A stretch of 32,129 nt of DNA from Terriglobia bacterium (lineage in GTDB: Bacteria > Acidobacteriota > Terriglobia > Bryobacterales > Bryobacteraceae). Below, piece after piece: positions 14,084 through 27,407 of this stretch. Every line of letters starts with the position of its first letter. The first letter of the stretch is position 1. Location: positions 1-32,129 of the forward strand of contig JANYJA010000129.1 of NCBI GenBank assembly GCA_025358575.1. Reading direction: 5' to 3'. A model generated the notes under the pieces. The model worked only from the letters and a program-made list of their open reading frames with translations, searched no databases and was not told where the DNA came from. Both the position numbers and the translations under genes were made by a program.

Positions 14084-14804
14084 GCCCGGCCCCCAGCACC
14101 TCGAGAAACGCCCGTGCTTCTTCGCCTTGCGAGTGCAGAAATTCCGGGGGTGGCCCCAGAAATTCGAGCGAACCGGCGCGCAGTAGCCCGATGCGGCTTC
14201 CCAGTAGCAAAGCCTCGCGAACGTCATGCGTCACGAAGATCGCCGTGGTCTGAAGCTTTTGGAACTGGCGTTGCAGTTCGAGCCGCGTCACCGGATCAAG
14301 CGCACCGAACGGTTCATCGAGAAGCAGCAGCGCCGGGTTCGCCGCCAGGGCCCGTGCCACGCCGATGCGCTGGCGCTGCCCGCCCGAGAGCTGTTTTGGA
14401 TATCGCGCTCCGAACTCTTTTGGGTCTAAACCAACCTGCGTGAGCAACTCCGAAACACGTGCCTGAATGCGTTGCTCGGGCCAGTTTTCCAGCTTCGGCA
14501 CGGTGCCCACGTTCGCCGCGACGGTAAAGTGCGGGAACAATCCGGATTCCTGAATCACGTAGCCGGTGTGCCGCTTCAATCGCACCGAATCCCATTCGGT
14601 AGTGGACTTGCCCTCGACTAAGACGTGTCCGCTGCTGGGAAACAGAAGACCATTCACCAGTTTCAACGCAGTGGTTTTGCCCGAACCGCTTCGGCCCAGC
14701 AGGATTAGTTTTTCGCCCGGTTCCAGTCTTAGCGAGATGTCGCGCAGAATTTCACGGCCGCCTACCGAATACGAAACGCCCGCGAATTCGACGAGTGCAC
14801 TCAA
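14073..14804 (-). CDS. OpuBA/OpuCA-type ABC transporter ATPase
   Basis: The 243-residue protein has all nucleotide-binding motifs: Walker A GRSGSGKTT, Q-loop YVIQESGLFP, signature LSGGQRQRIG, Walker B LLLLDEPFGALD and the switch His in FVTHDVREA. The sequence most resembles quaternary-amine importers. It stops soon after the core, so the CBS-domain pair used by OpuCA-type ATPases for osmotic sensing is absent. The chosen TTG start shares TTGA with the egtD stop, the same coupling style as other genes here. A start 16 codons earlier is possible but would add an Arg-rich leader. It would power the permease and lipoprotein encoded just downstream. Confidence 0.9.
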   Translation of the reverse strand: MSALVEFAGVSYSVGGREILRDISLRLEPGEKLILLGRSGSGKTTALKLVNGLLFPSSGHVLVEGKSTTEWDSVRLKRHTGYVIQESGLFPHFTVAANVGTVPKLENWPEQRIQARVSELLTQVGLDPKEFGARYPKQLSGGQRQRIGVARALAANPALLLLDEPFGALDPVTRLELQRQFQKLQTTAIFVTHDVREALLLGSRIGLLRAGSLEFLGPPPEFLHSQGEEARAFLEVLGAGHVV

Positions 14805-15772
14805 CTTGCGATCATCAGACTCTCGGCGAAAGCCCAATCGGCGTCGATCCACCGCGAATGCATGCGGAACCCTGTCTGTGACGCGAGCGAATCAATCTCT
14901 TCTACCCGAAACTTCTGGCTGGATTCCGTCCAGATGGTTTCGCCTTCCTTCATCTCAATATGCAAATCGAGAGCGCGAATGTAAATCCGTTGCCGACAAG
15001 TCGCCCGCAAATGCATCTCGATGCACGACGCATCGGCATTGAATCTGGCTTCATGCGCGAATCGAGCCAGATTGAAGTTGGCTCCCAGTTCACGATTGAT
15101 TCTGCCCAGCATGTTGAGATTGAATGCGGCCGTCACGCCCGTGGGATCGTCATAGGCGGTCAACATTTGCTGCAGCGGTTTAACCAGATCCGCGCCAAGC
15201 AGCAAGCCGTCGCCGGGCGCGAGCTGAGCGCGAATCCGCATGAGGAAGTTCGAAGCCGCATCCAAATAGAAATTTCCGATGGTACTCCCCAGGAAAAGCA
15301 GAAGAAGCTTTTCGCCGGGCTTGCGGTAACCCACGGCTTTGGCCAGGCCATCCATATATTCGCCTTGAAGTTCAGTTACCTGAACCTGGGGGATGCGACC
15401 CAGAACGAAGCCGCAATTCTGCAACGCAACCGGAGAGATATCGATCGGAAAATATTTGACAGGACCCATTCGCGCCGCCGCTTCGAGAATCCATCGCGTC
15501 TTGGCGCCGCTGCCGCTACCCAGTTCAGCGACAAAAAAAGGCCCGCGCATGGCTGTTACAATCGTCTCGCTGTGCGCCGCGAGCAGCCTTGAATCCGCCC
15601 GGGTAAGACCATACTCCGGCAGAAAAGTGATGGCGTCGAACAGCGCCGACCCGAGCGCATCGTATAAATAAGTCGACGGCAATTCCTTCTGGCCGCCCCG
15701 CGAAAGACCTGATCTTACGTCGGAGGCGAAACGGGATTCAACGGCGGGCTCAAGAGCTGCGGCGGCGGGCAT
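14801..15772 (-). CDS. egtD: L-histidine N-alpha-methyltransferase EgtD
   Basis: The 323-residue protein trimethylates histidine to hercynine with three molecules of S-adenosylmethionine, the first step of ergothioneine synthesis. Family marks are DAITFLPEYGLTRAD (46-60), where the Tyr helps bind the histidine, motif I ELGSGSGAKTRWI (83-95), FPIDISPVAL (108-117) and the diagnostic LFLGSTIGNF (159-168). The C-terminal part contains the substrate-side segment WTESSQKF. The chosen ATG at 15772 lies five bases after the egtB stop. The frame upstream of it overlaps egtB and is not family-like. Length matches known EgtD proteins. With egtB next to it and no egtA or egtC, the pathway would be the short cysteine-using kind known from other acidobacteria. 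Confidence 0.93.
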   Translation of the reverse strand: MPAAAALEPAVESRFASDVRSGLSRGGQKELPSTYLYDALGSALFDAITFLPEYGLTRADSRLLAAHSETIVTAMRGPFFVAELGSGSGAKTRWILEAAARMGPVKYFPIDISPVALQNCGFVLGRIPQVQVTELQGEYMDGLAKAVGYRKPGEKLLLLFLGSTIGNFYLDAASNFLMRIRAQLAPGDGLLLGADLVKPLQQMLTAYDDPTGVTAAFNLNMLGRINRELGANFNLARFAHEARFNADASCIEMHLRATCRQRIYIRALDLHIEMKEGETIWTESSQKFRVEEIDSLASQTGFRMHSRWIDADWAFAESLMIAS

Positions 15773-15777
15773 AAGAA

Positions 15778-16977
15778 CTAATTGTGTACCAAGTGAAAGG
15801 AAGCGTAAAGATACGGATAGTCTGGCCTGAACCAGTTTCGCAAAGAACGCCGCGTCAATCGCGCCGCGGTGCGTGGAGACGCGCCCTTGATCACATAATG
15901 CTGGTCGTCGAAAAAGTTGGCCGAATAGCCCGGATAGTAAGATCCAGGCTGGAATCCCGGAAAGGGCGCAAACGGCGTGCTGGTCCACTCCCAGCCGTTA
16001 CCGACGAGCTGCGATACCCCAAATGCGCTGTCGCCTTCCGGTGACGCATTCACGGGAATCGGATCCCATCGGCGAAAATCGAGGTTTCCAGGCGCGTCGG
16101 CGCGACCGTTCCAGGGCTGCGTTACCTCCGTTTCGCGAGGCGTCCCGAAAGCCGCGCGGTGAAACTGCGCTTCGGTTGGAAGCGCCGAGCCGCGCCATGC
16201 GGCATAGGCGGAGGCCTGTCGCTGTGTCACGTAGACCGGCCAATCGAGAGGCAACGGAAATTCTGAAAACATCCCGCGCAAGAACCATTCATCGCCGCGC
16301 TTCACCCAAAAATTGGGGGCATCCTGTCCCGTCCGGACGAACTCCAAATACTCGCCGTTGGTGATCTTGTGCTTTGAAATTGAAAAAGCCGGCACAACCA
16401 CGCTATGAAGTTGAAATTCGTTGTCCCATCCAAAGGTCCCGTTTCGATCCTGACCTAAAGTCGCCACCCCAGCGGGAATGTCGACCATCGAATTTGAGAG
16501 GGGCTGAAGGGCCTGCGACACCGGGTCGGCCGACCCGTTTTTCCGCTCATAAGGCAGGTTGTGCCACATATACGCAAGCGTTTCGGCGTGCATTTGCCGG
16601 TGTTCCACAATCATCTCCACGCGTTCCCGCGGCACGTTCCGTAGAACGGCATCCACGGTTTCGCGCGTGCGCCGGTTGTACTCAAGCGTCTCGGCTACTG
16701 ATGGCCAGTCCTTCGGCTGATCGTTTGGAAGCTGGCCAGGTTCCGGGTCGATACCGGCTTCAAAAAGCCGATCGAATTCTGGATGAAAGGTCGGGATGTC
16801 CATGCATTGCCGGGCGATCTGGTTCCAATCGAACGCCTCCAGGTGGCCTAGATAAAAGATGATCCGGTGACGCGCGGGAATGGGCCGATCATAAACAGCA
16901 CCCTGACTCAATAGGCCAAAAAGCGAGTCGGTATTCTCACGGGCCTCCTTCAATTCATTCAAAACGTGGTCTAGCAT
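15778..16977 (-). CDS. egtB: Ergothioneine-type sulfoxide synthase EgtB
   Basis: This 399-residue non-heme iron enzyme joins a thiol donor to hercynine using oxygen, giving a sulfoxide. The N-terminal DinB-like domain supplies the three-histidine iron site, here probably H45 (YLGHLEAFDW) and H126 and H130 in the motif HRQMHAE. The C-terminal half is a formylglycine-generating-enzyme-like fold with MVDIPAGVATLGQ (about 170), KHKITNGEYLEFV, LPTEAQFHRA, GNGWEWTSTPF and the closing FRPDYPYLYASFHLV. The family tail usually reads RNFFRPxYPYxFxGFR, so this is a close match. The thiol donor, cysteine or gamma-glutamylcysteine, cannot be decided by eye. Absence of egtA and egtC nearby favours cysteine, as in Chloracidobacterium EgtB. 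It is the first gene of the operon and divergent from the M28 peptidase gene. Confidence 0.93.
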   Translation of the reverse strand: MLDHVLNELKEARENTDSLFGLLSQGAVYDRPIPARHRIIFYLGHLEAFDWNQIARQCMDIPTFHPEFDRLFEAGIDPEPGQLPNDQPKDWPSVAETLEYNRRTRETVDAVLRNVPRERVEMIVEHRQMHAETLAYMWHNLPYERKNGSADPVSQALQPLSNSMVDIPAGVATLGQDRNGTFGWDNEFQLHSVVVPAFSISKHKITNGEYLEFVRTGQDAPNFWVKRGDEWFLRGMFSEFPLPLDWPVYVTQRQASAYAAWRGSALPTEAQFHRAAFGTPRETEVTQPWNGRADAPGNLDFRRWDPIPVNASPEGDSAFGVSQLVGNGWEWTSTPFAPFPGFQPGSYYPGYSANFFDDQHYVIKGASPRTAARLTRRSLRNWFRPDYPYLYASFHLVHN

Positions 16978-25076: not shown

Positions 25077-25874
25077 CTACACGCAGGAATTGGCCTTGTT
25101 CGACCACTCAAGCTGAACGGTGTGGGTGCCAATTTTTTTTGTCTTCCACGCGCAGATGTCTCCGATTTCGCCGTTGACGTCGTCGTACCAGCCTTGTCCG
25201 GGCACCGGGTCGGTAATGGCCTCGCATAGTTCATGCGAACTGGTCGAAGTCAGCGCATCGATAGGCAGCAGGCCGCCGGTGCAGCCGCTGCATCCTGGAT
25301 ACGGCATCACCGCGTAAAAAATCTTACCCATGATGTTGTCGTGATATCCGCAGAACGCCTGACAGGATCGCGAGCCGCCCTGCACGACCGCCGTCCCCGG
25401 CGGAACGTAAATGAAGTACAGGGTATTCGGACCGGCTGGCGGAAAAGCGTGGTTAGTCGCTATCGCGTGCTGCAGCATGACGCGAATGGCATGGTCGCTT
25501 ACCGACTTGCCGATATGGGGCGTGGTGATCGTCACCGTGCCGGTGCGTTTGCCGTGCCCGATCTTGTAGCCTGGGACGCTATATTCATTAAGCTGATCGA
25601 TAAGCGCGCTCGTCAGAATAGCGTCGAAGAAACTATTCACCTGCGTGAGAATTCCAGATGCCGGCGCCGAATTCCACGCCGGCCCCCAGAAAACCGTGAA
25701 CACTTCCACGTTGGTAAGTAGTTGTCCATTGCGATAAGTCAGTTGCGGTGGAGTCGCGGGACCCGCTTCTTTGATAGGCTTCGTCAGTGCTTCGGGAAGA
25801 TGCAGCGGAACAATGCGAATTGCGTCTGTTGAGCCCGAAAGAAATTCTCGTCCGGGGCTTGTGCTATGAGTCAT
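25077..25874 (-). CDS. EXORDIUM-like protein with HExxx(A)ITDP motif
   Basis: The 265-residue protein resembles the EXORDIUM/phosphate-induced-1 type family and its bacterial relatives. Its hallmark is SSHELCEAITDP (about 212-223) followed by GWYDDVNGEIGDIC, which looks like a metal site (His-Glu pair plus acidic residues). NVEVFTVFWGPAW near residue 57 and the Cys-rich stretches SRSCQAFCGYHDN and YPGCSGCTGG suggest disulfides and an extracellular protein. Yet there is no recognisable N-terminal signal peptide. The start is fixed by GGAGGG at 25884-25879, leaving four bases to the ATG. A GTG four codons earlier would lie in that site. It follows folE by 30 bases on the same strand. Function is unknown, and hydrolytic activity is only a guess. 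Confidence 0.7.
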   Translation of the reverse strand: MTHSTSPGREFLSGSTDAIRIVPLHLPEALTKPIKEAGPATPPQLTYRNGQLLTNVEVFTVFWGPAWNSAPASGILTQVNSFFDAILTSALIDQLNEYSVPGYKIGHGKRTGTVTITTPHIGKSVSDHAIRVMLQHAIATNHAFPPAGPNTLYFIYVPPGTAVVQGGSRSCQAFCGYHDNIMGKIFYAVMPYPGCSGCTGGLLPIDALTSTSSHELCEAITDPVPGQGWYDDVNGEIGDICAWKTKKIGTHTVQLEWSNKANSCV

Positions 25875-25878
25875 AGTA

Positions 25879-25884
25879 CCCTCC
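25879..25884 (-). promoter_or_regulatory. Strong Shine-Dalgarno (GGAGGG) deciding the start at 25874
   Basis: On the minus strand GGAGGG is followed by TACT and then the ATG. This supports the shorter start of the EXORDIUM-like gene over an in-frame GTG that overlaps the site. Confidence 0.7.
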
Positions 25885-25904
25885 ACTCGAAAGCAGAAAG
25901 CATA

Positions 25905-26504
25905 TCACGAGCGAATCAGACTGAGGAATTCATCGCGTGTGGCTTTTCGGCTGCGAAATGAACCCAGCATGGCGCTGGTGACCGTGCCCGAGTGCTGCTT
26001 CTCGACCCCGCGCATCATCATGCAGAAATGCTGCGCCTCACAAACAACACCCACTCCGATAGGATCCAGCATGTCCTTAATGCAATCCGCAAGTTCTTGT
26101 GTCAGGCGCTCTTGGATTTGCAATCGTCGCGCAAATATATCGACGAGGCGCGGAATTTTGCTCAGCCCGATGACTTTGTTGCGAGCCAGATATGCGACAT
26201 GGACCTTCCCGAAAAAAGGCAGCATATGGTGCTCGCACATGCTGAAGAACTCGATGTCCTTCACGATGACCATCTCGTCGTATTTCACCGAATAGATAGC
26301 GCCATTGACCACTTTGGCCGGATCCGTGTCGTAGCCGCTGGTCAGAAATTTCAGAGCCTTATCCACGCGATAGGGCGTGCGCTGCAAGCCTTCGCGCGTT
26401 GGATCTTCACCCAATGCGGAAAGCATTTGTTTCACCAGCGGTTCGATGGACACATCTGGCCGGCGTGGCGGCAGCATCTTCACGACGGTACTTTTTCGGC
26501 TCAT
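25905..26504 (-). CDS. folE: GTP cyclohydrolase I
   Basis: The 199-residue enzyme opens GTP to 7,8-dihydroneopterin triphosphate, the entry step for folate, tetrahydropterin and queuosine-type pathways. Zinc ligands are C90 and H93 in [11 protein letters not shown] and C161 in [28 protein letters not shown] (37-52), [20 protein letters not shown] (113-132) and the closing [19 protein letters not shown] are family blocks. Length and motifs are standard for type IA. It follows the first PTPS/QueD paralog by two bases on the same strand, so enzyme and downstream users of its product are made together. Confidence 0.96.
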
Positions 26505-26506
26505 AA

Positions 26507-26932
26507 CTAAGTCATTTTGCCTAACTCAACGCTGCTGCGTTCGGTCTCGTAGATTCGGATCGTTTCAAGCTCGGGGCCGCTTGGGAACGCGTTGCGCCAC
26601 GCCCGCCGCAAACGGTTGTCGACCACGATTCCAAGGTTCTCGGACGTCGGCACAATGCGAGCAAATTCAGCAATATCGCGATTCAGGTTGGCGTGATGCA
26701 TTGGAGAAATCACTTGGTCCTTGACCAGCCAATCCAGGGCCGAGGTATCGACCGCACGGCCCGAGATTGCGTCGATCTCCCCTCGCACGCTGACTTCCAG
26801 TTGATAGTTGTGGCCGTGTCCAAATTGGTTATTGCACTTCCCGAAGATGTCGCGATTCTCTTCGTCTGAAAGCTGTTCCGCGTGCAGCCGGTGCGAGGCC
26901 GCAAACTGATATTTGCGCGTTAGGCGGATCAT
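26507..26932 (-). CDS. PTPS/QueD-family pterin synthase paralog with Cys but no catalytic Asp
   Basis: This 141-residue protein belongs to the 6-pyruvoyl-tetrahydropterin synthase / 6-carboxytetrahydropterin synthase family. Zinc ligands are the His of AASHRLH and both His of FGHGHNY. The catalytic Cys is present in [14 protein letters not shown], six residues before the first zinc His. The Asp-His pair of the triad (rat D88-H89, in PLDHKNLD) reads His-His here (PMHHANLN), so Asp is lost. Substrate-anchoring Glu residues remain in PTSEN and IYETE. Its start shares ATGA with the stop of the neighbouring paralog. Such enzymes convert dihydroneopterin triphosphate, the FolE product, to a pyruvoyl- or carboxy-pterin. 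Whether it can act alone is doubtful; see the companion gene. Confidence 0.88.
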
Positions 26933-27336
26933 CCGAAATAGTCCACAAAAAGGTCGGGGGTCTCGTATACACGAACGCCATGCAAGCGCGGTCCACCGTT
27001 ATGAAACTGCGGGGACAGTCGTTCCCAAATGTCCACCGCAATGTTTTCGGTCGTCGGAACCACGTGGTCGAAGGGCGGCACTTCGAAATTGAGGAAGCGG
27101 TGATCGTACAGATCGATGACCTCGCTATTCAAAATGGCTTTCAGTTTCTTGAGATCCATCACCATGCCCGTAACCGGATCAGGGTCACCGGCGACAGTCA
27201 CCTCCAGCGTATAATTGTGCCCGTGGCCGTTGGGATTAGCGGCCGAACCGAACATGGCCCGATTCTCCTCGTCGCTCAGTTGAGGGTTGCGGCAAACGTG
27301 CGAGGCCGAAAATTCTACCCGCTTGATGATGAACAT
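26929..27336 (-). CDS. PTPS/QueD-family paralog with Asp-His but no catalytic Cys
   Basis: From the ATG at 27336 this 135-residue protein aligns over its length with rat PTPS. It has EFSASH and NPNGHGHNY (zinc His residues), PVTGMVMDLKKLK, LYDHRFLN (intact Asp-His pair), PTTENIAV (anchoring Glu) and RVYETPD. The catalytic Cys is replaced: FGSAANPNGHGHNY has Ala at the position of rat C42. Alone it should lack the nucleophile. Because the family's triad is formed between subunits, it could supply Asp-His to the Cys of the neighbouring paralog. An upstream GTG start would add 14 residues before the conserved N-terminus and has no ribosome binding site. It is the first gene of the folE unit and divergent from the TlpA-like gene. 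Confidence 0.86.
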   Translation of the reverse strand: MFIIKRVEFSASHVCRNPQLSDEENRAMFGSAANPNGHGHNYTLEVTVAGDPDPVTGMVMDLKKLKAILNSEVIDLYDHRFLNFEVPPFDHVVPTTENIAVDIWERLSPQFHNGGPRLHGVRVYETPDLFVDYFG

Positions 27337-27407
27337 GAACTCAAGTGTGGGATGTGCCGCACCCACTGCAAGATACACTAAAATGTTAACAGACTGGCGT
27401 TTCCAAC

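Follow-up and report, generated by a model that had tools for sequence, protein, structure and literature searches.

The A, B and folE genes of the window

The window, by which we mean the whole stretch of 32,129 nucleotides analysed here, contains a compact minus-strand unit in which two PTPS-family genes are followed by folE, in the order A, B and folE:

26929..27336, minus strand: gene A, PTPS-family paralog of 135 amino acids, with Ala32 at the catalytic Cys position
26507..26932, minus strand: gene B, PTPS-family paralog of 141 amino acids, with Cys33 and with His79-His80 at the Asp-His position
26929..26932, minus strand: ATGA overlap, shared by the A stop codon and the B start codon
25905..26504, minus strand: folE, GTP cyclohydrolase I, with a match to PF01227

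The gap between the stop of B and the start of folE is 2 bases. Translation of A could alternatively begin at an in-frame GTG at 27378. folE is the sole PF01227 match in the genome assembly of the window, and its product supplies the PTPS substrate (dihydroneopterin triphosphate). Directly downstream of folE and on the same strand lies an ORF of 269 amino acids (25077-25886, minus), whose listed start is 18 bases past the end of folE; a Pfam search with this ORF gave no match. Two adjoining minus-strand ORFs at 14801-16977 resemble a pair that we take to be EgtD and EgtB (ergothioneine synthesis). A third, QueD-like PTPS gene is present elsewhere in the genome (locus L001).

In PTPS, the zinc, the Cys and the pterin-anchoring Glu of an active site come from one subunit, and the Asp-His comes from a neighbour. 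In the rat structure of Nar (1994), Cys42 and Glu133 reportedly belong to one subunit and His89 to the facing trimer. We take the usual pterin-anchor Glu (rat Glu133) to be the Glu of the YET motif. A contains the motifs FGSAANPNGHGHNY, LYDHRFLN and PTTEN, and B contains PMHHANLN and PTSEN, with its Cys kept N-terminal to both. The numbering of B runs 9 behind that of the rat protein up to about residue 107. In B we find Cys33 (rat Cys42), the zinc ligands His14, His39 and His41, Glu98 and Glu129, with His79-His80 at the position of rat Asp88-His89. A has Ala32 at the Cys site, and its Asp78-His79, zinc His residues and both Glu residues are present. The Glu of PTSEN and PTTEN occupies the rat Glu107 position, and the YET Glu is also present in both proteins.

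The preliminary description of this DNA had proposed two PTPS paralogs with complementary catalytic defects, and its coordinates, frames and motifs are all as claimed; the shared ATGA and the folE gene two bases further on are likewise borne out at 26929-26932 and 25905-26504. It was right that both proteins keep the zinc His residues and the PTSEN/PTTEN Glu, but it took this Glu for the anchor, whereas the residue corresponds to rat Glu107 and the usual anchor presumably sits in YET. The Cys-keeping protein that it called the first paralog is real, but it is B, which comes second in the direction of transcription.

A and B are members of the PTPS family, with PF01242 scores of 123.2 and 92.3 bits, respectively (cut-off 22.4), and the three zinc His residues of the family are present in both. 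Their scores fall below the curated cut-offs of TIGR00039 for the PTPS/QueD subfamily (A 84.6, B 64.1 and cut-off 125.5 bits) and of TIGR03367 for the QueD equivalog (A 67.7, B 47.8 and cut-off 89.25 bits). The catalytic Cys that canonical PTPS-II has in its chain is present in B and replaced with Ala in A, and the Asp-His of the same chain is present in A and replaced with His-His in B, so that the pair holds them jointly. Neither protein has the Glu nucleophile of PTPS-III at the Cys position (Ala in A and Cys in B). The two halves of an intersubunit site are reciprocally lost and retained, as would be expected of a composite-site heteromer.

The closest solved relatives of A and B are the PTPS structures from rat (1b66/1gtq), human (3i2b), and C. 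elegans (2g64), and the match to the rat PTPS sequence has E values of 1.8e-33 for A and 1.5e-29 for B. The two proteins were modelled as monomers with a three-row alignment. The model of A superposes on 1gtq with a Z score of 16.6 and an rmsd of 2.6 (127 aligned), and that of B on 3i2b with a Z score of 13.2 and an rmsd of 7.0 (127 aligned). The mean pLDDT is 84.0 for A and 76.6 for B, in which the Cys loop (residues 32-37) has low confidence.

Co-occurrence and reciprocal conservation in the order

Among 200 genomes from the order of the window, 189 have a match to B, and all 189 loci were read. Two matches are present in 188 of these genomes and one in G048. Both triads are readable in 186 of the 189 loci; the excluded loci are L215 (scaffold gap), L219 in G048 (internal deletion in B) and L284 (contig end). 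The co-occurrence anticipated in the preliminary description is therefore upheld, as one of the two genes is simply absent from 0/189 loci, with the same three (L215, L284 and L219) being unscorable. In the 186 pairs, the Cys site of A is occupied by Ala (98), Glu (39), Asp (16), Asn (14), Ser (11), Gly (7), and Thr (1), and Cys is never found there (0/186), while Asp-His is present in every A (186/186). Conversely, B has the Cys and the zinc His residues in all 186 pairs and Asp-His in 102, and the site shows 29 dipeptide types. The pattern first noted in a single pair is thus beyond chance: A shows it in 186/186 readable pairs, and B lacks Asp-His in 84/186. This amounts to the reciprocal constraint suggested beforehand, with Cys never in A and always in B, and Asp-His always in A and often lost from B.

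The first 110 pairs all have A ahead of B and on one strand with it, and of 179 pairs, 177 have a folE ORF in the sequence retrieved around them (exceptions, L117 and L234). A -4 overlap between A and B is possible in 99/182 loci, a count in which overlaps are favoured by the script, which takes whichever in-frame start lies closest to the end of A. Eleven genomes of the order are unmatched by B; four of these have no PTPS match of any kind (G004, G035, G125, and G141), and the remaining seven have one or two PTPS matches each. Two of the seven were read, G083 and G148, and their single PTPS matches (L017 and L013) score only weakly against the A/B profile, as a QueD does.

Asp-His is missing from B in 77 of 179 pairs, and these 77 proteins all retain the Cys (77/77) and the zinc His residues (77/77); simple decay of B was rejected on this ground. 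A simple shift of the motif does not account for the loss, since only one of the 77 (L077) has Asp-His within ten residues. A shifted Cys in A was likewise rejected, as 2/179 A proteins (L045 and L081) carry a Cys four or fewer positions away. In the order, the zinc His residues of A are intact in 178/179 and both Glu residues in 175/179.

Trees of the 179 pairs were constructed with the catalytic columns left out. At the Cys site, A has 37 changes and B has none, whereas at the Asp site A has none and B has 36, and at the His site A has none and B has 32. Between intact and lost Asp-His, B has switched at least 28 times and A never. The tree lengths are 36.8 for A and 53.9 for B, and B is therefore 1.5 times faster overall yet slower at the Cys face. 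If changes fell according to tree length and were independent of each other, the chance of these distributions would be approximately 5e-7 (28/28 in B) and 3e-15 (37/37 in A). The asymmetry extends to neighbouring positions: 62, 63, and 64 change 0, 0, and 2 times in A versus 55, 53, and 92 times in B, and positions 15 and 32 show the opposite, with 1 and 4 changes in B versus 47 and 77 in A. Position 81 is fixed in A and free in B, and position 112 varies freely in A but hardly at all in B. Judged from these sequences, the asymmetric positions of A and B look like two complementary faces of one site.

Single copies, fusions, and unlinked pairs in the phylum

The phylum survey included 297 genomes, 67 of which have a match at 1e-18. 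In the genomes with a single match, Cys and Asp-His are both present in 17/17, and a search of these 17 genomes with an A-type profile found no close second copy, giving only distant matches of 1.8e-13 or weaker. Thirty f4 genomes have two matches, and 29 were read (G393 was left out). A has a complete triad in 29/29; B has the Cys in 29/29 and Asp-His in 22/29, having lost it in 7/29. In terms of sequence, the f4 pairs are an intermediate state. In f19, A and B are both complete in the three genomes read of four.

In f16, A and B are fused: among nine genomes of its order, six full-length fusion ORFs were found, two more ORFs are truncated where their contigs stop, and the remaining genome shows no fusion. 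The A half has Arg or His for Cys, keeps Asp-His and has lost the YET Glu, and the B half keeps the Cys and has Gln-Gly or Ser-Gly for Asp-His (6/6 full-length ORFs for each half). The linker is about two residues. Another complementary fusion is present in G204 (f9), with Lys-Asp-His and Cys-Asp-Cys, and G355 (f55) has a tandem pair with Leu-Asp-His and Cys-Arg-Gly. A further candidate came from L004, the one locus that a search of genome contigs with B gave, in a Phycisphaerales MAG. Its ORF of 299 amino acids (L004:5509-6408) consists of a degenerate PTPS-like N half without HGH and a complete PTPS C half, and it was rejected as a complementary A-B fusion because an inert half is joined to a complete one.

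In the order of G375, an A-type protein is encoded on a separate contig in 16/19 genomes. All 16 lack the Cys, keep Asp-His, have Tyr for the second zinc His (GYGH), and have lost the YET Glu (16/16). The A-type proteins of this order (loci L204, L344-L356, L393, and L394) appear to be single-purpose donors of two residues. The B-type protein has lost Asp-His in 16 of 17 readable cases and keeps it in G509.

A phylum tree was constructed from 137 columns, in which many forks are open. A of the window's order is sister to f4 A (support 92), and the B proteins of both are sister (80), so the duplication predates the split of the window's order and f4. The A proteins of f19 and f16 and the A-type proteins of the G375 group are located on the A side (83, open), and f19 B branches next to them at a fork that is open. 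No firm place emerges for f16 B, whose branch is long, and the B-type proteins of the G375 group fall among the single-copy sequences, apart from B. Because A of f4 and f19 keeps the Cys, the Cys losses in A of the window's order, in f16 and in the G375/f55 group look separate.

A candidate two-component PTPS-type enzyme

The mixed enzyme envisaged in the preliminary description gains support from the co-occurrence of A and B, from their reciprocal constraint and from the natural complementary fusions. The title of Burgisser 1995 calls the PTPS triad 'intersubunit', and the available text of another paper places each PTPS active site between three adjacent monomers (PMC7546909). Since the triad is intersubunit, the best reading of the live site would pair Cys(B) with Asp-His(A), and A and B are very probably the two subunits of one heteromeric PTPS-type enzyme of this kind. 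On complex formation, B would provide the zinc pocket with Cys33, and A would provide Asp78-His79 across the interface. The reverse pocket, in which the zinc site of A faces the drifted Asp-His position of B, would be unable to form a triad. If Asp-His comes from the opposite trimer, the simplest stoichiometry would be a stack of one A3 and one B3 trimer, in which three sites would be live and three dead. The pair goes back to an old duplication. A then lost its Cys, in what seems to have been a single event basal to the window's order, after which B lost Asp-His repeatedly, a loss that A would cover.

The A-B enzyme would be fed with dihydroneopterin triphosphate by FolE. It probably carries out the PTPS-II reaction, given the rat residues in the predicted live pocket, the separate QueD-like gene and the adjacent folE. 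Phenylalanine hydroxylase was considered as the sole pterin consumer and rejected: PF00351 (aromatic amino acid hydroxylase) has a match in 5/21 genomes, the window's included, so this enzyme is not a general consumer.

The divided triad may have a wider history. We give an even chance to the idea that in this phylum the PTPS-type enzyme has become two-component at least three times, as the tandem pairs, the f16 fusion and the unlinked G375 pairs, with live and dead pockets sharing one barrel complex, on a tree that is weakly resolved. In the fusions, a linker this short (about two residues) may impose a ring in which A and B alternate, as in two-domain T-fold enzymes, and not stacked A3 and B3.

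Several observations count against a heteromer. The 102 of 186 B proteins with Asp-His could act as homomers, and in G509 an A-type partner is present though the B-type protein keeps Asp-His. The zinc ligands and Glu residues of A are mostly kept in the window's order, where a dead pocket would not need them; parts of the A pocket are lost in the G375 group and f16, which indicates that it is not always needed. In G048, A is intact beside the B with an internal deletion; B of L114 stops short of the YET Glu; and in G263, a second PTPS gene without Cys or Asp-His is located near a complete one. A Cys paralog whose partner is simply absent occurs in none of the 189 loci of the window's order. 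In another order, three genomes, G506 (96% complete), G505 (83%), and G511 (75%), encode a B-type protein that lacks Asp-His, and an A-type partner was not detected in them.

The B-type protein of G506, which lacks the His, would suit a B that acts as a homohexamer no longer needing Asp-His, with A as an independent homomer that has another job, and so would the Cys and zinc His residues conserved in 186/186 B proteins. However, this arrangement leaves unexplained why A strictly keeps Asp-His (186/186) with no Cys to act on. It also does not predict A-B fusions, and Asp-His is never lost in the 17 single-copy relatives. We consider it very unlikely. If anything less likely still is that A acts as a prozyme, a non-catalytic activator that binds B but contributes no catalytic residues. 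There is a precedent in the trypanosomatid deoxyhypusine synthase, according to the available text of PMC3663545, and the A-type proteins of the G375 order, which lack a zinc ligand and the YET Glu, should be inert alone because of these losses. With other parts of the catalytic machinery decaying, an activator of this kind would not be expected to keep exactly Asp-His in every A (186/186, 16/16 of the type without the second zinc His and all f16 A halves read).

The Cys is missing from PTPS-III as well, and a Glu is its proposed new nucleophile, as the available text of PMC2229834 has it. A as a PTPS-III-like enzyme with changed chemistry (e.g., a folate bypass) beside a normal PTPS in B is barely credible: it would fit the Glu at the Cys site of A in 39/186 and the lack of a FolB (PF02152) match in 13 of 21 genomes searched (the window's included, several of the 13 being incomplete) against the presence of HPPK in 19/21, but the site holds seven residues, mostly Ala (98/186), the six f3 genomes searched (L102, L120, L142, L143, L230, and L242) all have both FolB and the Glu, the opposite of what a bypass predicts, and B in the window is not normal.

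The heteromeric PTPS-type enzyme proposed here resembles PTPS-II in sequence, fold, zinc His residues, both Glu residues and the adjoining folE. Known PTPS-II enzymes are described in the available sources as hexamers of identical subunits, each chain having its own Cys, Asp, and His, whereas the triad of A and B is split over two genes. Plasmodium PTPS-III (PMC2229834) and QueD/PTPS-I share the family and the zinc site with A and B; unlike the PTPS-III Glu, the corresponding residue of A is Ala here and variable in relatives. In the available text on trypanosomatid deoxyhypusine synthase (DHSc/DHSp, PMC3663545), an impaired and a dead paralog form an active hetero-oligomer with sites at subunit interfaces, which is similar to the arrangement suggested for A and B. 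DHSc/DHSp differs in fold and reaction, and its activity and binding were measured, whereas those of A and B are deduced from sequence; in contrast to DHSc/DHSp, the losses in A and B are complementary at named residues and recurrent. Heteromers of paralogs are already known, as far as the available parts of four papers tell (PMC6711710, PMC11066126, PMC7480870, and PMC1895999). A COG0720 review handles paralogs as separate enzymes, and the word heteromer is absent from its available text (PMC5041015). Among the matches listed in a literature search, which comprised titles and abstract openings of open-licence papers, none concerned a heteromeric PTPS.

If the proposal is true, these genes would form an unusually clear natural series from a homo-oligomer to an obligate heteromer by complementary decay: complete single copies, pairs with both members complete (f19), pairs with A complete and B decaying (f4), pairs with A lacking the Cys and B decaying (the window's order), fused pairs and unlinked pairs. 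The state changes at one catalytic site, at least 28 in number, would make a ratchet-like, neutrally gained complexity testable by one enzyme assay. An annotation that calls A or B by itself a functional PTPS or QueD may be mistaken. As for the number of PTPS genes in a genome, the f3 genomes with matches have just two, a third QueD-like match being absent, and most f1 genomes have three.
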